A stretch of DNA of 64,000 bases from Methanocella arvoryzae MRE50 (lineage in GTDB: Archaea; Halobacteriota; Methanocellia; Methanocellales; Methanocellaceae): positions 868,001 through 932,000 of the forward strand of contig NC_009464.1 of NCBI RefSeq assembly GCF_000063445.1. Direction: 5' to 3'. The notes below the pieces were generated by a model. It was not told the DNA's origin, ran no database searches, and saw nothing but the letters and a program-made list of their open reading frames with translations. Shown piece by piece: positions 986 to 14,414 of this stretch (position 1 is the stretch's first letter; the number at the start of each line of letters is the position of its first letter). The translations under genes were made by a program, and so were the position numbers.

Positions 986-1007
986 GCGTCCCGTCGACGT
1001 GATTTTC

Positions 1008-4000
1008 ATGCACATCAAGGAGATCGAGCTGTCTAACTTTAAGTCATTTGCCAGAAAGGTCAAAGTGCCTTTCTACGATGACTTCACCACCATCTCGGGC
1101 CCCAACGGCTCGGGCAAGAGCAACATCATAGACAGCATTCTCTTTTGCCTCGGCCTCTCGAACTCCCGCACCATGAGGGCTGAGAAGCTCACTGATCTGA
1201 TTTACAGTGTGGACGGTAAGAGCCCGGGCACTGCAGAGGTCACGATCCGCTTCGATAACGTTGACAGGGAGTTGCCGATCGACCTGGACGAGATCACCGT
1301 CACGAGGAGAATCAAGTCCAGCGACAGCGGCTACTATAGCTATTACTATTTCAACGATAAGCCCAGCTCGCTCAACGAGATCCACGAGCAGCTGGCGAAG
1401 GCCAGAATTTCCCAGGACGGTTACAACGTAGTCCTCCAGGGCGACGTTACCAGAATCATCAGCATGAGCGACACCGAGCGGCGGAAGATCATCGACGAGA
1501 TCGCCGGCACCGCGGAGTTCGACGACAAGACAGACAAAGCGCTCTCAGAGCTGGAAGTGGTCAGGGAGCGGATCGAGCGGGTTAATATCATCATCGCAGA
1601 GGTCGAGGCCAGGCTTTCCCAGTTAAAGAGGGAGAGGGATCAGGCGCTGCTTTACCAGTCGTACAGGGACGAGAAGATCAAGAACGAGGGCTACCTGCTC
1701 TTATCGGAGCTGAAAGAGGCCCGGAAGTCGCTGGACTCGCTGCTGGAAGACCTGAGAGACAAGACCGCGAAGCGTGAAGCCATCATCGCCGAAGTTGAGG
1801 CAAAGGTGATCGCAGTCGACAAACTCAAGGCAGAGATCAGGGCCCTGAGCGAGGTCATTACCAGTAAGGGCGAGGGCGAGCAGATCAAGATCAGGAGAGA
1901 GATCGAAGAGGACCGGGCAGGCATCAAAGCGTGCACCAACATCATCGAGTTCTCTAAATCGGAGACGGTCAACCGGGAGAAGGAAAAGCAGAAACTGTTC
2001 CTGGAGATAGAGGCTTCGAATACCCAGATCGAAGCTCTCGGCGCCAGGGTGGCCGAAGAAGAGCAACGTAAGGCCAGCCTCGTCGGCGAGCTCAAGCACC
2101 AGAAAGCGGCTCTCGAAGAAGTCCACGGCAAAATCATGGTCATCGACTCCAGGTTCGAGGGCGTGAGAAGCAGGCTGTCAGAGATGAAGAACGCCCTCGA
2201 AGCTTCCAGGAATCAGCGCAACGAAAAGATCAGGGAGAAAGACCGTATTCTGGATGCAGCCAGGCGCAAGCAGGACGAGGAGATGGACGCTGAAGCGGCC
2301 ATTACCTCTGGCCGGAGCGAGATCGAGAGCCTCCGGGTGGAAGGCGGCAACATCGAGCGGGACATAAAAGAACTCCAGCGGCGGTCCCAGGCTCTGGTCT
2401 CCGACATCGCGGACATGGAGAGCGCCAGGGCCCGGGCGAAACAGGATCAGCTGGCGATCGAGTCGAAGCTCCGTAAATTACAGGAAGAGTACGCCAGGGC
2501 GGAAGGCCGGATCAAGGCATACGAAGAGTCGGACTACAGCCAGGCCGTCGAGACCATTTTGCAGGCCCGCAACACCAGGGAGCTGCCGGGCATCTACGGC
2601 ACTATCGCCGAGCTGGGTAAAGTGGACGACAGCTACTCTACTGCGCTGGAAGTGGCCGCGGGCAACAGGCTGCAGAACATCGTGGTCGACAACGACGAGG
2701 ACGCATCCCGGTGCATCTACTACCTGAAAGACAGGCGAAAGGGCACTGCCACGTTTTTGCCGCTGAACAAGATGCGCCAGCGCCCGCCCATGCGGGATTT
2801 CAAGAACCAGCCCGGCGTCATCGACTACGCGATCAACCTGGTCGACTACAACCCGAAGTACGACGCGGCCTTCTGGTATGTGTTCGGGGACACCCTCGTG
2901 GTGGACAGCCTAGAGACCGCCCGCCGCATGATCGGCAGCGTCAGGATGGTCACGCTGGACGGGGATCTTGTGGAGAAGAGCGGCGCTATGACCGGCGGTT
3001 TCCGGCAGAAGTCGAAGCTCAAGTTCAAGGCTTCGGAAGAGGAGCGGATCAGGACTCTGGCGGAGCAGATCACGGTCGCCGAGTCGGAGAGGGACATGGC
3101 CATCTCTAAAGTGGAGTCGGTCGACGGCCATATCTACTCCTTAAAGAAGGACCGCTCTGAGCTGGAATCGCAGATCCAGAAGCTTTCGTCCCGCAGGGAC
3201 GAGATCGCCGCCCGCGCCGGCAGGCTGGAGATCACCATCAGGGAGAAGGAGGCTGCTATCGCCTCGCTCAGGGACGAGCGCCGCATGCTGCGGGACGACA
3301 TGATCCAGATCGAGGATGCGATCGCTAAGGCAGATGCTGACATCATATCATTATCATCAGAGACTGCTAAGCTGGAGGACGAGCTGAAAGGCTCGGAGAT
3401 CCCGAAGCTGACCGAAGAGGCCACCCGCATCGAAGAGGAAATGCGCCGCCTCGAAGACCGAATCAGAGACATAGAGAGCGGCATAGCCTCCACTAAAATG
3501 GAACAGGGCTTCGTCACCGCCCGGATTGAGGAGAACCGCAAGCGCCTGCAGGACATCGACGCCAACATAGTCGCCTTGCGGCAGAAGGTGACGGAGAACG
3601 AGGCCCAGATAGTCGTCCACCAGCAGAGGATGGCCGAGCTGGGAAAGCGGGAGAAAGAGATCGAGGCGGAGCTGGTCGGCCTCAAGAAGCAGCGGGACGA
3701 AATGTCGGAAGCCCTGACCAGAGCTGACCACGACCTGTACGACGCAAGACGCTCGCTGGAGAGAGTCACTGGCCTGCTGAACACGCTGGAGATCGCCCGG
3801 GACGAGAATATTGAGAAGATCCGGCGGATGGAAGCGACGGTACAGGAGCGGGGCGTCGTGCCTTCGGAAGACGTGCCGCCCATCGACAAAGTAAGGGCGA
3901 ACATCAGCCTGCTGGAGCGCAAGATGCAGGAGCTCGAGCCCGTCAACATGCTGGCAATTACGGAGTATGACTCGGTGGAAGCCCGCCTCAAAGAGACTAC

Positions 4001-4529
4001 GGAGAAGCGGGATATCCTCACCAGGGAGCGCCAGGACATCCTGGACAAGATCGAGCACTACAAGACCATGAAGAAAGAAGCCTTCATGACCACCTTCACT
4101 GCCATCGCCGACAACTTCAGAAACATTTTCCACGAGCTGTCGGACGGCGTGGGAGAGCTAGTCCTGGAGAACCCCGAAGACCCGTTCGCCGGAGGCCTCA
4201 CCATCCACGCGCAGCCCCACGGCAAAGCGCTGCAGCGCATGGAAGCCATGTCCGGAGGCGAGAAGAGTCTCACTGCATTAGCCTTCATCTTCTCCATCCA
4301 GAGGCACCGCCCGGCACCGTTCTATGCCTTCGACGAGGTCGACATGTTCCTCGACGGCGCTAATGCGGAACGGGTCGCCAGGATGATCAAGTCGCTGTCG
4401 AGCAATGCCCAGTTCATAGTGGTATCGCTGCGAAAGCCCATGATCGAATCGGCGAACAGGACTATTGGCATTGCCATGCAGGAGAATAACATTTCCAGCA
4501 TCACGGGTGTGAGACTCTATGGCAATTGA
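1008..4529 (+). CDS. smc: Chromosome segregation/condensin ATPase SMC
   Basis: SMC forms a dimer of long coiled-coil arms with ABC-type ATPase heads that entraps and organises chromosomal DNA together with ScpA and ScpB. The protein is about 1173 residues, the normal family length. The Walker A motif GPNGSGKSN lies at residues 31-39, the hinge at roughly 520-670 (LPGIYGTIAELG onward), the signature SGGEKSLTALAF near 1080 and the Walker B FYAFDEVDMFLD near 1105. Two long coiled coils separate these parts. A GTG at 999 is in frame, but GTGAT at 999-1003 looks like part of the Shine-Dalgarno sequence and the conserved start MHIKEIELSNFKSF fits the ATG at 1008. The 3' end overlaps scpA by 11 bases. 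Confidence 0.97.
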   Translation: MHIKEIELSNFKSFARKVKVPFYDDFTTISGPNGSGKSNIIDSILFCLGLSNSRTMRAEKLTDLIYSVDGKSPGTAEVTIRFDNVDRELPIDLDEITVTRRIKSSDSGYYSYYYFNDKPSSLNEIHEQLAKARISQDGYNVVLQGDVTRIISMSDTERRKIIDEIAGTAEFDDKTDKALSELEVVRERIERVNIIIAEVEARLSQLKRERDQALLYQSYRDEKIKNEGYLLLSELKEARKSLDSLLEDLRDKTAKREAIIAEVEAKVIAVDKLKAEIRALSEVITSKGEGEQIKIRREIEEDRAGIKACTNIIEFSKSETVNREKEKQKLFLEIEASNTQIEALGARVAEEEQRKASLVGELKHQKAALEEVHGKIMVIDSRFEGVRSRLSEMKNALEASRNQRNEKIREKDRILDAARRKQDEEMDAEAAITSGRSEIESLRVEGGNIERDIKELQRRSQALVSDIADMESARARAKQDQLAIESKLRKLQEEYARAEGRIKAYEESDYSQAVETILQARNTRELPGIYGTIAELGKVDDSYSTALEVAAGNRLQNIVVDNDEDASRCIYYLKDRRKGTATFLPLNKMRQRPPMRDFKNQPGVIDYAINLVDYNPKYDAAFWYVFGDTLVVDSLETARRMIGSVRMVTLDGDLVEKSGAMTGGFRQKSKLKFKASEEERIRTLAEQITVAESERDMAISKVESVDGHIYSLKKDRSELESQIQKLSSRRDEIAARAGRLEITIREKEAAIASLRDERRMLRDDMIQIEDAIAKADADIISLSSETAKLEDELKGSEIPKLTEEATRIEEEMRRLEDRIRDIESGIASTKMEQGFVTARIEENRKRLQDIDANIVALRQKVTENEAQIVVHQQRMAELGKREKEIEAELVGLKKQRDEMSEALTRADHDLYDARRSLERVTGLLNTLEIARDENIEKIRRMEATVQERGVVPSEDVPPIDKVRANISLLERKMQELEPVNMLAITEYDSVEARLKETTEKRDILTRERQDILDKIEHYKTMKKEAFMTTFTAIADNFRNIFHELSDGVGELVLENPEDPFAGGLTIHAQPHGKALQRMEAMSGGEKSLTALAFIFSIQRHRPAPFYAFDEVDMFLDGANAERVARMIKSLSSNAQFIVVSLRKPMIESANRTIGIAMQENNISSITGVRLYGN

Positions 4530-5244
4530 AGCGCCTCCGGAGGCGTCACCGGGGGAAGCGCAACAGCAGCCCAGGCAGGAAGAGTCCGTCGAAATCCTGC
4601 TGGAGATGGCCCGCAACAACGAAATCGACCCCTGGAACATCGACATCATAGACATCACCGACAAATTCCTCCGCAAGATCGAGGAGCGTGAGCGGATCGA
4701 CCTGCGAGTCTCGGCGAGGACGCTGCTATACGCATCGATCTTGCTGCGGATGAAGTCTGACGTACTGGTGAACGCTCCGCCACCGGAGGACGAGTACATC
4801 GAGGAAGACCCGGGCTTCGACATCGACCCGGAGGAGTTCCCGGTGCTGGAGCCCAGGCTGAGGCACGTGGCTGCAAGGCCTGTCACCCTGCAGGAACTGA
4901 TCGAGGAATTAAAGAGGGCTGCGGCAACTAAGGACATCAACATGGCCCGGCAGGCCCGCAGGGTGGAAAAGCCCCAGCGGAAGACGCTGGAGGAAGTGCT
5001 GGGCATCGCCCACGAGGAGGACATCGAGAAGAGCATCATGGACATGATCAAGGTGCTCGACGCCGAATTTAATTACAGGGAATTCGTCACCCTCAGCGAA
5101 TTAATTAAAGAGCAGACCCCGCACGGCATCATCAACGTGTACCTGCCACTATTGTTCCTGGCCACCAGAAAGTACGTTACGCTCACCCAGGAAGTGCTGT
5201 TCGAAGAGATATTCATCAGGAGAGGGGAGAAGCTTGGTAGATGA
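4519..5244 (+). CDS. scpA: Condensin kleisin subunit ScpA
   Basis: ScpA is the kleisin that bridges the two SMC heads and binds ScpB. This protein has 241 residues. The N-terminal part carries the kleisin hallmark LLEMARNNEIDPWNIDIIDI, which contacts the SMC neck, followed by LRVSARTLLYASILLRMKSD. The middle is acidic and proline-rich. The C-terminus (residues 180-241) looks like the winged helix that contacts the other SMC head. The ATG at 4519 lies inside the end of smc (11-base overlap) and the gene overlaps scpB by 11 bases, indicating coupled translation of the three condensin parts. The extra 20 N-terminal residues (APPEASPGEAQQQ) are low-complexity. Confidence 0.95.
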   Translation: MAIEAPPEASPGEAQQQPRQEESVEILLEMARNNEIDPWNIDIIDITDKFLRKIEERERIDLRVSARTLLYASILLRMKSDVLVNAPPPEDEYIEEDPGFDIDPEEFPVLEPRLRHVAARPVTLQELIEELKRAAATKDINMARQARRVEKPQRKTLEEVLGIAHEEDIEKSIMDMIKVLDAEFNYREFVTLSELIKEQTPHGIINVYLPLLFLATRKYVTLTQEVLFEEIFIRRGEKLGR

Positions 5245-5827
5245 GAAAAACCTGCTGGAAGCCGCCCTGTTCGCCGCAGGCGGCCCTATTACAGACGCCC
5301 AGCTAAAGGCGCTGATCAACCGCTCGAGCGCTTACGTGGCGCAGATCATGGACCAGCTGATCGACGAATATAGGTCCAGAGGCTCCCCGCTGGAGATCAT
5401 CCGCCTCGACGGCAAGTACGTCATGCAGCTCAAGCCGGAATACTCGAGCAAAGTCATGAGCGTCTCCCCCAAAGAGCTCAGCCCCGGCGTGCTGCGGACA
5501 TTATCTATCATAGCTTATTACCAGCCCATTTTCCAGAACGAGCTCGTCAACATCAGAGGCCAGTCCGTCTACGACCATGTAGCCGTGCTGCTGGACAGGG
5601 GCCTGATAGAGAAGACCAAAGAAGGCCGTTCCTTCAAGATCACCACCACCCCGGCGTTCTGCGACTACTTCGGGCTCACCCACGGCGACGTGGAATCGAT
5701 CAAGAAGCAGATCCAGCAGAAGGCGAAACTAAAGAAGCAGACTCTGACCCAGTGGATGGAGTCGAACGTGCCGGAAGGCGATCCGTTCGGGGCAGTGAAG
5801 CTGCTGGTGCCGGTAGCGAAAGAATAA
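5234..5827 (+). CDS. scpB: Condensin subunit ScpB
   Basis: ScpB is a tandem winged-helix protein that dimerises and binds the ScpA linker. This one has 197 residues. Residues 5-60 (LLEAALFAAGGPITDAQLKA) form the first winged helix. The second contains LRTLSIIAYYQPIFQNELVN and IRGQSVYDHVAVLLDRGLIE, typical of the family. The C-terminal 40 residues are basic (KKQIQQKAKLKKQ). The start is a TTG at 5234 preceded by GGGGAGA; no ATG fits, and the conserved sequence begins directly after it. It overlaps scpA by 11 bases. It is the last gene of the smc-scpA-scpB cluster. Confidence 0.94.
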   Translation: MVDEKNLLEAALFAAGGPITDAQLKALINRSSAYVAQIMDQLIDEYRSRGSPLEIIRLDGKYVMQLKPEYSSKVMSVSPKELSPGVLRTLSIIAYYQPIFQNELVNIRGQSVYDHVAVLLDRGLIEKTKEGRSFKITTTPAFCDYFGLTHGDVESIKKQIQQKAKLKKQTLTQWMESNVPEGDPFGAVKLLVPVAKE

Positions 5828-8257: not shown

Positions 8258-8757
8258 GGTAAGATCTCCCGCTCTTGAAACTTTATATGCTGCAAAATAT
8301 ATTAGGCTTTGTCATCGGGATGACATTAGAAAGTGGCGTATGCCACCACACTTTCGAAAGATGAAAACAGGTACTGCGGGCTGAGATCCTTTATACATAA
8401 TATATATTGTGCTGGGGGATGGTTGACGGATAATAGGATAGCATTTATATACTCGCTGCTAATAGTAGCTATTCGATAAGCTACCGGCTACATACGTGCG
8501 GATAGGAAAAGGAGGCATAAAAGCGCCTGCAAACGGCGTTTAAACGTCCCTGGCGCAAGGATGCCCGGCTGTTCGAGCGAGTAAAGCTATAAATAACATG
8601 CTGAAAAACATGCAAATGCTCGTCGCTCTACAGGGCATTTCCAGGCTAAAAAAGCCGTAATAATGCCTCGTATCGAAAACACCGTGGATATAACCGGTTA
8701 TACGATAAAATATTTGTAGATGTAAAAGCTTAATTCAGAAGGTCGGAAGGTCGAAGG
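8258..8757. other. 500-base intergenic region with two candidate promoters
   Basis: No supported reading frame. A TATA-like element (ATTTATATACT) near 8442-8452 is followed by a small hairpin (GTAGCT at 8465-8470, AGCTAC at 8479-8484) and several short self-complementary stretches up to about 8560. A second A/T element (GATAAAATATTTG) lies near 8704-8716, about 45 bases before the ATG at 8758. The first promoter would give either a leader of about 290 bases for the gene at 8758 or a separate small RNA. I see no match to a known riboswitch. Confidence 0.35.
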
Positions 8758-10953
8758 ATGAAAAAGGTACTTGCCCTCTTATTAATCAGTTTCTTCGTTT
8801 TACAACTCATCGCTGCCCCTAACGTATATGCGGCAAGCCTGCCGTTCACTGCGCTGGGACAGGTTGTGGACAGACACGGAAAGCCTGTACAGGGTGCGAC
8901 TGTAATCCTGTACGATGGCATTTATCAGGAGATCGGCAGGACCGTTTCAGATGAAAGCGGAGCCTTCGGCTTCAGTAACGTGGTGGCTAACAGCCCGGGC
9001 TGTAAGGTAAAGGTAGAATTCAAGGACAGCGGGACCACTTACGAGACAAGCGTGGTAAACACACTGTGGTACCCGACCGATACTGGCATCGTCAAGTTCG
9101 ATATCAGAGATACGACTCTGGAAAAGTATCCTCCCCCTGAATACGGATTTATCTGGGGTGTTATGCAGCAGGACGGATCCAGCCAGAGGCCTTTAGGTAA
9201 TGGTGTTGTCTACGCATCTTCCGGCGATCAGAAATTCTACACCTTCACGGACAACTCTAAAAACAGAGGCACGTTCCTCATGCGCCTACCGGTCGGCCAC
9301 TACAAGGTGTGGGGCCAGTACATGGAAAACGGCATGATCTTCCAGTCCAGCAAGATTCTGGATGTTGACGTGATTGGTGCCACTAATTATCTCGACAGTC
9401 TTTCGACTACTGTATTAATACCAATGTCTGCAGCAGCGCAGAACCCCCAGCCGCCAGAGATGCCGACTCAGGAACAGCTGAATATCTTGAGCGGCTACGT
9501 CACCTATAAAGACGGCAAGCCCATACCTGACCAGGTAGTAACGCTTTACCAGTCCACGGACGATGGCATGAGCGGCTATCTGAAGGTAGGAGAAGCCAGG
9601 ACTGACCAGAACGGCTTCTACCAGTTCTACGGAGTCCAGGTTACCGCAGATGCGCCGGACAATGGCATCGTATACGGCTCCAAGGGATTCAATATCACCA
9701 CTATGTATACGGACAAGAACGGCCAGGTATACGGTGATAGCAAAAAGATCACGCTATATAACCCCAATTTCGTCACCCAGGACCCGAGCGCAGACCATAG
9801 AGCCCGGAACCCGGTCGTCAACTTCACCATACCATACTCAACCCAGGGCTGGGTAAAGATAAACACGATTAACCCGGAGATCACCGGAATCAAGCTGTAT
9901 GTAGATGACAAGTTGATCACAGACTCTGAGGGCAAGCCAGTCACATTACCATATACTGCTTACATAGAACCCGGGAGTCACAAGATCAAGATTACTGCAC
10001 CGGGCTACGATGACTGGGAAACACCTGTCAACATAGTTGAGAATACGCCCACGCAGGACGTCTTTGTGGGCATGACCAAGTCTGTCGTTCCCGCATGGGT
10101 GCCAGTTGCAGCAGCCGTAGTTATTCTCATCCTCGTAGTAGTGGCAATACTGGCCCTGCTGTTCACCAAACGCCAGTGGATCCTGGGAATATTCGGCGGC
10201 ATCATCGCCCCGATCCAGGGCGCGCTGGGCAAATCGCTCAACAACTACAAGGCCTCCAGTCAGACGAAGAAGGCTAACAGGGCCCAGAGGGCCGAGGCTC
10301 GCAAAGCCGAGCAGGCCAGGATGGCACAGGCCCGGGAAGCGTCCAGAGCAAAACTGGACAGCAAGAAGAGCCAGGAGAAGGCTTTCAACGCAAGGGCAGA
10401 GCAGCCCCGCCTTCCGGAGTATCGCGGTGAAGAAGAGGAAGTTCCGAGCATGGTCAGCGCCCGCGAGATCTACAAAAAGCAGGACAGGCCGGCCGTAGAG
10501 AGGATACCGTCCTCGTACGCCAACAGAGGCCCGTCTGTAATACCGCCGGCTGCATATGATGATGAGCCAGCTCCGAGAGCTCCTGCATACGAAGACAGGG
10601 AAGCCAGAGCGCCCGCATACGAACCCAGGGCTCCGATCACGTCTGAGCCTGACGGGCGGATACGCTTACCCAGGTCCATGCCCATAGGCAGAGACCAGCC
10701 GCCTTCCGCAAGCATAAAGGATAAGGAACTTGTCATCAAGTATATTCGGGAGCACCCGGACGGAGTCTCCTTTATCCAGATGAGCAACGATCTGGAGATT
10801 CCCCCGAACACGCTCACCATGATCACCAAAGAGCTCGTCATCAACGATGACATCGAGAAAATCAAGGGATTGTACTACTATAAGTCACACGATTCCTCGT
10901 CCGATGACAGAGAGTCGTCCGTAGTCGTATGGAGGCTGGACGGGGAAGATTAA
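8758..10953 (+). CDS. Membrane-anchored surface protein with cytoplasmic winged-helix domain
   Basis: 731 residues. A signal peptide (residues 1-26) leads into an extracytoplasmic half made of repeated beta-sandwich domains: a carboxypeptidase-regulatory-like domain (about 30-120, QVVDRHGKPVQGATVILYDG), a related one (131-235), a third (240-360, YVTYKDGKPIPDQVVTLYQS) and a PEGA domain (365-440, with KIKITAPGYDDWETPV). One membrane segment follows (about 447-468). The cytoplasmic part is an Ala/Arg/Lys-rich helical stretch, a Pro-rich linker and a winged helix-turn-helix at about 652-708 (LVIKYIREHPDGVSFIQMSN). The layout suggests a sensor passing a surface signal to DNA or to the actin-fold protein encoded 13 bases downstream. 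This function is inferred; the family has no name I know. Confidence 0.85.
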   Translation: MKKVLALLLISFFVLQLIAAPNVYAASLPFTALGQVVDRHGKPVQGATVILYDGIYQEIGRTVSDESGAFGFSNVVANSPGCKVKVEFKDSGTTYETSVVNTLWYPTDTGIVKFDIRDTTLEKYPPPEYGFIWGVMQQDGSSQRPLGNGVVYASSGDQKFYTFTDNSKNRGTFLMRLPVGHYKVWGQYMENGMIFQSSKILDVDVIGATNYLDSLSTTVLIPMSAAAQNPQPPEMPTQEQLNILSGYVTYKDGKPIPDQVVTLYQSTDDGMSGYLKVGEARTDQNGFYQFYGVQVTADAPDNGIVYGSKGFNITTMYTDKNGQVYGDSKKITLYNPNFVTQDPSADHRARNPVVNFTIPYSTQGWVKINTINPEITGIKLYVDDKLITDSEGKPVTLPYTAYIEPGSHKIKITAPGYDDWETPVNIVENTPTQDVFVGMTKSVVPAWVPVAAAVVILILVVVAILALLFTKRQWILGIFGGIIAPIQGALGKSLNNYKASSQTKKANRAQRAEARKAEQARMAQAREASRAKLDSKKSQEKAFNARAEQPRLPEYRGEEEEVPSMVSAREIYKKQDRPAVERIPSSYANRGPSVIPPAAYDDEPAPRAPAYEDREARAPAYEPRAPITSEPDGRIRLPRSMPIGRDQPPSASIKDKELVIKYIREHPDGVSFIQMSNDLEIPPNTLTMITKELVINDDIEKIKGLYYYKSHDSSSDDRESSVVVWRLDGED

Positions 10954-10966
10954 AGGGTGGATATAA

Positions 10967-12100
10967 ATGGATGAAATGAATGCTCACGATAGCAAAATGT
11001 TCACAGACGGCAGCGGAGGCATGGAATTAGCCGGCGCCGGTTTTGTCGATACTGGATATGTCAAGAAGAGATCCAATGAGGCAGTGCCCATAGGCCTGAA
11101 GATAGGCTCGACCCGCACTGTGCTGGTCATGCCCAACTACGAGGGCAGCCTCGATATCGTCCGCACGCTCACCTGCGTCGCCCGCTATCGGGACTTATTC
11201 ACCGGCAAGCTCGCCACCAAATTCGGAGACGAGGCTGCCGAAGAGTACGCCGATTCAGTCTACTTCATGTTCAGGGCAGGGCTGCCCCAGGACGACGACA
11301 GCGTCAAGCTCGCCGCCCAGTTCATCGAGTACCTCGTGTACCGGTACAACATCCCTGAGAACAGCTATGTAACACTCGCACACCCCGCAGTCGAGAACGA
11401 AAGGGGCCGCAAGAACCTGAAAGAGATCATCTCTGGAATGTCCATCGGCAGGACCGGCAGACAGGCGTGGTCCGAAGCCTTCTGCGGCGCAATCCCCGCC
11501 TTCGAGGGCCTGGAAGCCATCAAGAAGACTTTCATGAGCGTCAACATGGGCTCCACTACCCTGGAGATCAGCGCGTTCAGGAACGGCGAGCCGGTCCACA
11601 CAGTCACGCTCGGCACCATCAGCGGCAACCTGGTCGACAGGAAGATTCGCCTGGGCGTGCAGAACGAGACTCAGGGCATCGTCAACATCGACCTCAATAC
11701 CGCCCGCAAATACAAGGAAGAGTTCGCCAACTTCATCGACTACAAGCCTGTCTACGACTCCGTCCACATCCACGACAGAGGCCAGTACGGCTTCAAGATC
11801 GAGAAGAGCATCATGAAGCCCGTGGAAGAATACGTCAACAACGTAATCGAGGCCATTATGGAGAACTTCTTCCCGCAGCTGGCCCAGGACCACTACCAGA
11901 CCTACAAGAGGGTCCTGACAGAGCCGATTATCTTAACCGGCGGCATGGCATGTATCCCTGGCCTCAGGGAGAGAATCCAGCAGATGCTCTGCGACGAGCT
12001 GGAGCAGAAGGTCACGGTCATCTCGAGCGAAAGGCCAGACCTGGCGCCGGCCATCGGGGCTTTCAGGATCTCAGAGTACACGCTTAACTATAAAGAGTAA
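10967..12100 (+). CDS. Actin-fold (MreB/ParM-like) protein with altered phosphate loops
   Basis: 377 residues with the actin/Hsp70 ATPase fold: phosphate-1 loop GLKIGSTRTVLV (residues 43-54), connect region SEAFCGAIPAF, phosphate-2 loop SVNMGSTTLEISAF (about 191-204) and adenosine motif PIILTGGMACIPGL (about 322-335). In ordinary family members the first loop begins with Asp (DxG) and the second also has Asp before the glycines; here these are Lys45 and Asn193. It may therefore bind nucleotide without normal hydrolysis. The gene follows the winged-helix receptor gene by 13 bases, starts at an ATG with GGGTGG in front, and is followed by a hairpin terminator. It could form filaments or act as a switch tied to the membrane receptor; that is inference. 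Confidence 0.85.
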   Translation: MDEMNAHDSKMFTDGSGGMELAGAGFVDTGYVKKRSNEAVPIGLKIGSTRTVLVMPNYEGSLDIVRTLTCVARYRDLFTGKLATKFGDEAAEEYADSVYFMFRAGLPQDDDSVKLAAQFIEYLVYRYNIPENSYVTLAHPAVENERGRKNLKEIISGMSIGRTGRQAWSEAFCGAIPAFEGLEAIKKTFMSVNMGSTTLEISAFRNGEPVHTVTLGTISGNLVDRKIRLGVQNETQGIVNIDLNTARKYKEEFANFIDYKPVYDSVHIHDRGQYGFKIEKSIMKPVEEYVNNVIEAIMENFFPQLAQDHYQTYKRVLTEPIILTGGMACIPGLRERIQQMLCDELEQKVTVISSERPDLAPAIGAFRISEYTLNYKE

Positions 12101-12128
12101 GGGGACCACCCTTACTTACTATTTTGTC
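12096..12128 (+). terminator. Hairpin terminator after the actin-fold gene
   Basis: AGTAAGGG and CCCTTACT pair around a five-base loop at 12096-12116, followed by TACTATTTTGTC. The stem overlaps the TAA stop codon. It separates the receptor/actin pair from the prepilin peptidase gene. Confidence 0.65.
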
Positions 12129-12168: not shown

Positions 12169-12987
12169 ATGTTAACTGTCCAGCCGGATGCAATCAACTG
12201 GCTACGTATTGTGATGTGTCTGGCAATAATGGGATACTCCTGTATCACAGACTGGAAGTCCAGGCGGGCGCCGCCCATACTCTGGGAAGTAATGACCGCT
12301 GCCGGGGTTATCCTGCTACTGACGGAGATCTTTACATCCTCGTACGAAGTGCGGTACAACGTGCTGTTCTTCTTCGCCCTGAGCTTCTGTTTAATCTACC
12401 TGCTGGTGAACTTCATCTACTACCTGTTCAACAACGTACTGAAAGGTGCCTTCGGAGGAGCCGATGCCAATGCACTGCTGGCTATGTCGGTGCTGTTCCC
12501 GTACTACCCGGTCATGGACATCCTGGGCGTTTCGCTGCCGCTGGTCAAAGATCCGGTCACGCCCATCTTTACACTTGCAGTCTTTGGTAACGCCCTCATC
12601 CTGAACATCGTCCTGCCCCTGTCGATCTTCCTCTACAACGCGTACAAGTTGCCTTTCAGGGAACTGAAATCTAACTTTATTACAGCGTTCTTCGGGTACA
12701 AGATGAGCCTGAAGGACCTGAAGGATAAGCACGTCAGGCTGATGCATAACTACGAAGAGGAAGATGGCAAAGTCGTCAGGCACATGTCCATGTTCAGGTA
12801 CCCTGAGCTGGACGACGAGCTCTACGGCCAGCTGAAGAAGTGGAGAAAAGAGGGCAAGATAGAGGATACGCTCTGGGTTACGCCCAAGATACCGCTGCTC
12901 ATACCGATCACCTTAGGAGTCGTTGTAGCGCTGGCGTACGGCGACATCATGACTCAGATGATCGTAGGAATCATGGGGCTGCTTTAA
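12169..12987 (+). CDS. Type IV prepilin peptidase (A24 family)
   Basis: 272 residues. An integral membrane aspartyl protease that removes the leader of pilin- or archaellin-type preproteins at the membrane. The two catalytic aspartates are visible: one in GYSCITDWKSRRAP near residue 24-30 and one in the GxGD-type motif FGGADANALLAM near residue 100. About six hydrophobic segments are present, with a soluble insert (about 165-235, FGYKMSLKDLKDKHVRLMHN onward) before the last membrane segment. The insert makes it longer than the usual 230 residues. It has its own leaderless promoter. A likely substrate supplier is the pilus operon at 39727-44704, 27 kb away, but no pilin gene is present in the window. 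Confidence 0.85.
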   Translation: MLTVQPDAINWLRIVMCLAIMGYSCITDWKSRRAPPILWEVMTAAGVILLLTEIFTSSYEVRYNVLFFFALSFCLIYLLVNFIYYLFNNVLKGAFGGADANALLAMSVLFPYYPVMDILGVSLPLVKDPVTPIFTLAVFGNALILNIVLPLSIFLYNAYKLPFRELKSNFITAFFGYKMSLKDLKDKHVRLMHNYEEEDGKVVRHMSMFRYPELDDELYGQLKKWRKEGKIEDTLWVTPKIPLLIPITLGVVVALAYGDIMTQMIVGIMGLL

Positions 12988-13124: not shown

Positions 13125-14414
13125 ATGGCAAATATTAACGAAAAATCGGTGCTGGATGTCCTCGAGCTGCTGCTCACCGCCGAGATATACAATAACTCGG
13201 GTGCGCTGACAGAGGACGATCTGCCGCCCCGTATTCGCAAGCACTACTGGGACGCCAAGAACAATAATGTGCCCCGGCCGATCAAGGTTGTCGATTCGGA
13301 CATCAAGGCGATCCTGAACTTCGACGACGCCCATGAAATCATGTCTTCGCTGCCCTTCGTCAACTTCGACGAGTTCGGCTCGATTTTCACACTCACGGTG
13401 CTGGACCTCGGCACCAAGTGGTTTGCGAAGAAAGACGTGAAAGACCGGATTAACAATAACCCTGTCCTGGCTTACTATTACCAGAACTACGGCACCTTCC
13501 ACGTCGACTATAAGGAGGTCAAGTCCAGGAATCCCCCGAAGGAATCCGACAGGGCCTGGGTCGAGGCGCTGAGCAAGAACGTGGCCACCGAAGGAGGGGA
13601 AGAAGGCGTCGACATGCTGAAGCTTGTCCACGTATTCGCCCCGGAGGACGTCAACCAAAAGATTGACGACATCGTGCTTACCCCCGAGCAGGAGGCTGAA
13701 GTAGAGAAAATCGTGAAGGCCATCCAGTACCGCGACTACCTGCGGAAGATCGGTTTAAGAGAGATTGGCAAGCTGCTGTTCGTAGGGCCCCCGGGAACCG
13801 GCAAGACGTCAACGGCGAGGGCCATGTCCGCGAGACTGGGCCTGCCTTTCCTCGAGGTAAAACTTTCCATGATCACCTCGCAGTACCTCGGCGAAACGTC
13901 CAAGAACATCGATAAGGTGTTCGAGCTCGCCAAGAAGATGAGCCCCTGTATCCTCTTCATCGACGAGTTCGACTTCGTCGCCAAGACCAGGACGTCCGAC
14001 GAGCATGCAGCCCTCAAGAGAGCGGTAAACACCCTGCTGAAGTGCATTGACGACATCAGCCTGGTCAACGACGGCGTGCTCCTGATCGGTGCCACCAACC
14101 ATCCGAAATTACTGGACAGCGCCGCGTGGAGAAGGTTCGACGAGATCGTCATGTTCCCGCTGCCCGACGTGGAGATGAGGGAACAGATCTTCAAGATGGT
14201 GCTGGAGCCCATCGATGGCAAGTTCAACACGGAAGAGCTTGCCGCCATGACGGAGAACTACTCCGGCTCAGATCTGCGCCTCGTTGTCAGAGAAGCAGTG
14301 CTCAACGCGCTCACCGAAGACAGGACCACACTCACCCAGGAAGACATGGTCCGGGCAGTCAGGCAGTTCGAGGAACGGATCAACCTGAGATTGAACGACG
14401 GCCAGAGCAGTTAA
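13125..14414 (+). CDS. AAA+ ATPase with unusual N-terminal domain
   Basis: 429 residues. The C-terminal half is a classical AAA module of the Cdc48/proteasomal-ATPase/FtsH group: Walker A GPPGTGKTSTARAM (about 219-232), pore-loop region LSMITSQYLGETSKNIDKVF, Walker B CILFIDEFDFV, sensor-1 LLIGATNHP, an arginine pair in AAWRRFDEIVMFPLP, and a lid with NYSGSDLRLVVREAV. The first 190 residues do not look like the coiled coil plus OB domain of PAN or the Cdc48 N-domain; I do not recognise them. It may therefore act on a specific substrate as a remodelling or unfolding enzyme. It follows the prepilin peptidase gene by 137 bases but has its own promoter. Confidence 0.88.
   Translation: MANINEKSVLDVLELLLTAEIYNNSGALTEDDLPPRIRKHYWDAKNNNVPRPIKVVDSDIKAILNFDDAHEIMSSLPFVNFDEFGSIFTLTVLDLGTKWFAKKDVKDRINNNPVLAYYYQNYGTFHVDYKEVKSRNPPKESDRAWVEALSKNVATEGGEEGVDMLKLVHVFAPEDVNQKIDDIVLTPEQEAEVEKIVKAIQYRDYLRKIGLREIGKLLFVGPPGTGKTSTARAMSARLGLPFLEVKLSMITSQYLGETSKNIDKVFELAKKMSPCILFIDEFDFVAKTRTSDEHAALKRAVNTLLKCIDDISLVNDGVLLIGATNHPKLLDSAAWRRFDEIVMFPLPDVEMREQIFKMVLEPIDGKFNTEELAAMTENYSGSDLRLVVREAVLNALTEDRTTLTQEDMVRAVRQFEERINLRLNDGQSS

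Follow-up and report, generated by a model that had tools for sequence, protein, structure and literature searches.

Closest described systems

The described system nearest in design to the locus studied here is the pairing of RodZ with MreB. RodZ is a bitopic protein whose cytoplasmic helix-turn-helix (HTH) binds the actin homologue MreB and not DNA, and it carries a basic juxtamembrane linker, one transmembrane helix, and a beta-rich outer domain (PMC6946637). Our locus lies in a 64,000-nucleotide stretch of Methanocella arvoryzae MRE50 (contig NC_009464.1, positions 868,001 to 932,000 of the forward strand), referred to in full as the window, which is part of a 3.18-Mb single-contig genome. 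Its first gene encodes a membrane-spanning surface protein, termed here the receptor, and its second an actin-fold protein. Like RodZ, the receptor has a single transmembrane helix, a cytoplasmic HTH-type domain, a basic juxtamembrane linker, a beta-structured outer part, and an actin partner. It differs in that its HTH is winged and C-terminal while the outer part is N-terminal (the reverse membrane orientation), its domains are unrelated, and its gene is paired with that of the actin in one putative transcript. Pfam hits to the receptor with E of 1 or less included neither of the RodZ families HTH_25 and DUF4115, and we treat RodZ as an analogue by design only and not as evidence of family membership. 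An earlier sequence-only reading of this DNA had stated that it knew of no described system with this combination, a statement that overlooks RodZ-MreB.

The second comparison is with Salactin itself, described in 2023 in Halobacterium (H. salinarum), where it hydrolyses ATP and polymerises (PMC10746226). The Halobacterium filaments start out from foci at the poles and influence how DNA is partitioned when ploidy is low; that study postulates a kinetochore-like site but names no anchor (PMC10746226). ATP-dependent, dynamically unstable filaments have been demonstrated only for the Halobacterium protein (PMC10746226). The M. arvoryzae protein belongs to the same full-length profile family and has the same phosphate-loop residues; no partner is known in Halobacterium, whereas here salactin is paired with the gene of a transmembrane winged-helix protein.

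Two further systems share part of this layout. ParM-ParR-parC is likewise a unit of two genes built around an actin with dynamic instability, a property that for Salactin has been demonstrated in Halobacterium only. However, the receptor is a membrane protein and not a soluble ribbon-helix-helix ParR, the unit is chromosomal, and no ribbon-helix-helix family was among the receptor's Pfam matches. Archaeal membrane-associated HTH regulators (COG2512-like) consist of an outside domain, a transmembrane helix, and a C-terminal winged helix. The receptor has a like layout, but differs by its acidic winged helix and by the lack of any profile match found.

A conserved pairing of a surface receptor with Salactin

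We found that the receptor and salactin genes stand side by side in all four Methanocellales genomes of our set (one family, three genera), separated by 13, 13, 15, and 16 bp. In the genome G009 synteny ends right after salactin and the pair is still intact. A full-length search over 295 genomes of the phylum did not find the receptor beyond the Methanocellales. One genome-contig scan returned only Methanocella sp. PtaU1.Bin125, the nearest named relative in the database. Literature searches for an archaeal actin-winged-helix system or for actin in Methanocella gave nothing relevant. The pairing around a known actin is real, conserved and, within the searched literature, unreported; the co-occurrence proposed earlier as a check was borne out. 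The features of the locus are as follows (window coordinates).

8702 to 8752, + strand: conserved core promoter and 5' leader, 51 bp; TATA-like AAAATATTT, then AAAAGCTTAAT...AAGGTCGGANGGTC
8758 to 10953, + strand: receptor, bitopic surface protein of 731 aa; open reading frame (ORF) with homologues directly 5' of salactin in 4/4 Methanocellales
8758 to 8835, + strand: signal peptide, aa 1-26; hydrophobic N-terminus after MKK, kept in all four
8857 to 9039, + strand: extracellular CarboxypepD_reg module 1, aa 34-94; PF13620, E 1.5e-16 for the protein over two stretches
9484 to 9657, + strand: extracellular module 2, CarboxypepD_reg/SpaA-like, about aa 243-300; second PF13620 stretch, and PF17802 at aa 251-294, E 5e-5
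9949 to 10047, + strand: PEGA-like stretch, aa 398-430; PF08308, E 9e-4
10093 to 10167, + strand: single transmembrane helix, about aa 446-470; hydropathy up to 3.5
10168 to 10710, + strand: basic Pro-rich cytoplasmic linker, aa 471-651; pI 9.9, 34 K+R, 24 D+E
10711 to 10944, + strand: cytoplasmic winged-helix domain, aa 652-729, with invariant C-terminal SSVVVWRLDG; identity, AlphaFold2 (AF2), and Foldseek
10967 to 12100, + strand: Salactin, actin-like filament protein of 377 aa; PF25229, E 1.1e-147
11099 to 11101, + strand: Lys45 in the phosphate-1 loop G-L-K-I-G-S; invariant in the salactin-family loci covering the site
11543 to 11545, + strand: Asn193 in the phosphate-2 loop V-N-M-G-S; invariant in all salactin-family loci examined
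12095 to 12117, + strand: probable shared terminator, a hairpin with a 9-pair stem and a T-rich tail

The second gene was assigned to Salactin by a full-length PF25229 match of 491.9 bits (cut-off 27.1) and by the NCBIfam equivalog NF053533 at 465.6 bits (cut-off 400). By these profiles it is the already-described archaeal actin, known since 2023, and not the undescribed actin-fold protein for which it had been taken. The actin fold proposed for it is certain at the level of profile evidence, and MreB_Mbl also matched (E 2e-8). A phmmer search against the PDB returned only a weak MreB match; Salactin therefore has no solved close relative. The sequence-only reading had pointed out Lys and Asn at positions where actin-family proteins carry metal- or phosphate-contacting Asp. 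Both residues are present, at 45 and 193, but they are not unusual: in an alignment of 37 loci, including one fragment without the Lys site, they were invariant hallmarks across haloarchaeal, Archaeoglobi-type, and other salactins. Since Halobacterium Salactin is ATPase-active and polymerises, these residues would not mark a dead enzyme, and the possibility of an inactive pseudo-actin was rejected.

The outer part of the receptor contains two copies of CarboxypepD_reg above the cut-off. These modules, called Ig-like in the earlier reading, are transthyretin/prealbumin-like beta-sandwiches and not true Ig domains, although the protein does span the membrane with beta-sandwich modules outside; the PEGA assignment scored 19.5 bits, just under its cut-off of 20.8. 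This outer part places the receptor in a family of Methanocella surface proteins, of which the genome encodes at least two paralogues that share the CarboxypepD_reg module but lack the winged helix; the latter is single-copy in this genome. Across the four Methanocellales, identity is 39-47% for the whole receptor and 74-81% over its last 80 residues, so that the winged helix is its best-conserved region; the final SSVVVWRLDG is invariant. Salactin is 88-92% identical in the same comparison. An outer part that drifts, joined to a conserved winged helix beside an even more conserved Salactin, fits a cytoplasmic end that faces Salactin.

The winged helix and its possible ligand

The fold of the C-terminal domain was approached by several routes. 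Pfam returned only RPA_C (E 0.07, under cut-off) and no known regulator family, profile searches of solved structures gave chance-level matches only, and weak profile links led to the HTHs of PAS-type proteins (E 0.006-0.025). AF2 run on the four Methanocellales sequences alone produced no usable model (pLDDT 44). When seven putative HTH relatives were added, it predicted an alpha-alpha-alpha-beta-beta arrangement with block pLDDT of 81-88 over residues 1-60. Foldseek with this enriched model was dominated by winged helices (MarR, IclR, Z-alpha), matched at low significance (best E 0.02) but with a probability of 1.0. A winged-helix fold is thus supported by modeling on an alignment enriched with presumed relatives, and the AF2 and Foldseek support is not independent because relatives chosen as HTHs entered that alignment.

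The winged helix is acidic (pI 4.8-5.2), its net charge being -1 to -2 in the core and -3 to -7 for the whole domain. The recognition helix opens with PPN, IPN, or QPN and has no basic residue there. By contrast, an NRN opening and a positive core are seen in four of the seven relatives that were added, these four coming from PAS-type HTH proteins. These features lean towards a domain that binds protein rather than DNA. The earlier description of a DNA-binding-type winged helix is supported for the fold and weakened for the function.

Genetic organization of the locus

Both ORFs lie on the + strand with a purine-rich stretch 5' of each start codon, and the 13-bp gap and the hairpin at 12095-12117 agree with the earlier description of closely spaced genes sharing a terminator. 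Over the 60 positions before the receptor start codon, 50-53 were identical, ungapped, between M. arvoryzae and the other three genomes, compared with 24-41 of 60 (gaps allowed) upstream of neighboring genes. The flanks of the 51-bp element are unconserved, and no second copy was found in the 864 kb of the genome covered by the search. This upstream element is a separate sign, at the sequence level, that the receptor and salactin genes may be regulated jointly.

The next gene, a prepilin peptidase, starts at 12169 directly after salactin and carries its own TATA-like box; receptor and salactin therefore form a two-gene unit. The peptidase is the only member of its family in the genome. Its gene comes after salactin in three of the four Methanocellales, and in G009 the two are unlinked. 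A pilus operon in the Methanocellales was rejected on the grounds of this sole membership and the apparent separate promoter. A defense function for the pair was likewise rejected, as PADLOC matched neither gene.

Second 3' of salactin, at 13125-14414, we observed an AAA ATPase that is 84-86% conserved in two relatives. It resembles the anti-phage ATPase IetA (PADLOC E 6e-67) but falls far under the NCBIfam cut-off.

The receptor as a candidate membrane anchor

The reading we favor, although we put it at somewhat less than an even chance, is that the receptor is Salactin's membrane anchor and that its winged helix has the Salactin filament, not DNA, as its ligand. In the cytoplasm, Salactin would assemble ATP-driven filaments. 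The winged helix and its invariant tail SSVVVWRLDG would grip Salactin, probably at a filament end or as a small oligomer, while the basic linker and the single transmembrane helix would keep the complex at the membrane. The outer beta-sandwich modules would link it to the S-layer or to some other component of the surface, so that filament start sites would be fixed by an envelope-attached receptor. That Salactin forms filaments, and that it takes part in partitioning chromosomes when ploidy is low, is presumed from the Halobacterium literature, and we infer the receptor-Salactin contact and the outside ligand.

The acidic winged helix and the lack of a basic start to its recognition helix are what lead us to favor such a RodZ-MreB-like mechanism. 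Other findings also speak for an anchor. In the four Methanocellales genomes the MreB profile matched salactin and, apart from it, nothing but DnaK-sized open frames of about 620-636 aa, and in a second, unrelated lineage (L073) a protein combining a winged helix with a transmembrane helix is encoded two genes from salactin. A membrane-tethered filament anchor is the most economical form of the earlier proposal of a membrane-tethered DNA anchor with a filament, the DNA-binding part of which is weakened.

Several points weigh against this interpretation. The contact between receptor and Salactin is a proposed one, only four genomes from one family were sampled, and the surrounding block (scpAB, MAT, and a radical-SAM gene) is likewise syntenic. 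Adjacency alone is modest evidence because of these last two facts. In addition, the receptor is absent from other salactin lineages, the winged-helix model required the enriched alignment, and an acidic winged helix is compatible with DNA binding too.

If the domain does bind DNA, the receptor could be a chromosome tether that ties a centromere-like sequence to the membrane and, with Salactin, moves or holds chromosomes. We consider this unlikely, though it is the best surviving of the alternatives. The loss of salactin disturbs DNA partitioning in Halobacterium (PMC10746226), the condensin genes smc-scpA-scpB lie 3 kb upstream of the pair (window 999-5827), and scpA and scpB are near the pair in all four Methanocellales. 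Foldseek matches also include DNA-bound winged helices and, weakly, the archaeal plasmid centromere-binding protein 4rs8 (E 0.058). The net negative charge and the recognition helix without a basic start argue the other way, as does the conserved element at 8702-8752, which lies across both core promoter and leader and showed no second copy in 864 kb.

The same element bears on a second alternative, in which the receptor is a membrane-tethered transcription regulator: an outside signal would alter the winged helix, which would control its own operon, with Salactin as the regulated output. The receptor's layout matches that of the archaeal membrane-associated HTH regulators, and an unusually conserved promoter and leader without a second copy is what a self-recognized operator would look like. 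However, many other causes could conserve a promoter, the winged helix is acidic, and no known regulator family was matched. We regard this as doubtful and place it next in rank.

Salactin neighborhoods in other lineages

The 2023 Salactin study reported poor synteny of salactin and no informative gene neighborhood in haloarchaea. We examined loci from further lineages, whose names other than Methanocella were inferred, partly from that paper's description. In Archaeoglobi-type genomes and one related class, the gene 3' of salactin encodes a protein ending in [ST]PR[IL]L at all 15 readable same-strand loci (L060-L074, e.g. L066:8386-8907). Most of these proteins are coiled coils carrying K-W-D-x-L-F-E as an N-terminal motif, and the tail has the look of a C-terminal peptide that binds either Salactin or a partner they have in common. 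A MinD/ParA-like ATPase gene comes next in 12 of the 15 loci (Pfam was run for two). No SPRIL-tailed protein was present in 864 kb of the M. arvoryzae genome, and when a SPRIL-adaptor profile was run on genomes not of the Archaeoglobi type, most of its matches were to generic coiled coils within long open frames.

ParA/MinD-like ATPases beside salactin recur in two lineages (L066:8904-9713; L071:9319-10122; L043:8933-9844). The winged-helix protein of L073 (2948-3724) is encoded by the second gene after salactin, following a TPRIL-ending protein; its transmembrane helix is C-terminal, and it is apparently unrelated to the receptor. Among the 17 haloarchaeal loci (L042-L058), an ArlD/E-type protein (PF04659; e.g. 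L058:6367-6852) is encoded directly 5' of salactin in eight, two assigned by Pfam and the rest by BLAST cluster, and a divergent ParA gene sometimes lies beyond it. Type IV pilus T2SSF genes were found near salactin in five Archaeoglobi-type or related loci (Pfam was run for two), and T2SSE/PilB3-like and T2SSF genes adjoin salactin at L066:2518-7275 and L060:9869-12064. A 2016 census of archaeal pili does not mention actin in its main text (PMC4858521).

These neighborhoods raise a third alternative, in which Salactin has a part in positioning type IV pilus or archaellum machines and the receptor would connect it to such structures in one lineage. The pilus genes and MinD-like ATPase of the Archaeoglobi-like loci, the ArlD/E-domain gene in haloarchaea, and the prepilin peptidase after salactin in most Methanocellales would all suit it. 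Against this, the peptidase is the sole member of its family, has an apparent promoter of its own, and is unlinked in G009, and Halobacterium salactin mutants swim normally (PMC10746226). We find it improbable. Least probable of all is that receptor and salactin are functionally unrelated and merely share a transcript, as few genomes and an entirely syntenic local block would allow, against which stand the similar small gap everywhere, the common conserved leader, and the retention of the pair at a synteny break.

Returning to the anchor reading, its extension to other lineages is that archaea evolved their own transmembrane linkage from actin to the envelope. Salactin would be a shared filament core with lineage-specific adaptors: the actin-gripping winged-helix receptor in the Methanocellales, the SPRIL coiled coil together with a MinD-like ATPase for positioning in the Archaeoglobi and their relatives, and the ArlD/E-like protein with or without a divergent ParA in some haloarchaea. 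We offer this broader model tentatively, as one with a better chance of failing than of holding.

Implications for Salactin biology

Very few actins have been shown to be dynamically unstable in cells, and Salactin is among them; the searched literature reports no anchor, nucleator, or cargo adaptor for it. The actin of this locus is itself known, and the membrane partner remains the surprise: the paired receptor is a specific, testable candidate for Salactin's missing anchor. The SPRIL coiled coil, the MinD-like ATPase, and the ArlD/E-like protein are candidate lineage adaptors for a filament without a published partner. If the winged helix does bind actin, the receptor would be a convergent counterpart of RodZ, in which a DNA-binding fold has been turned into a cytoskeletal connector.

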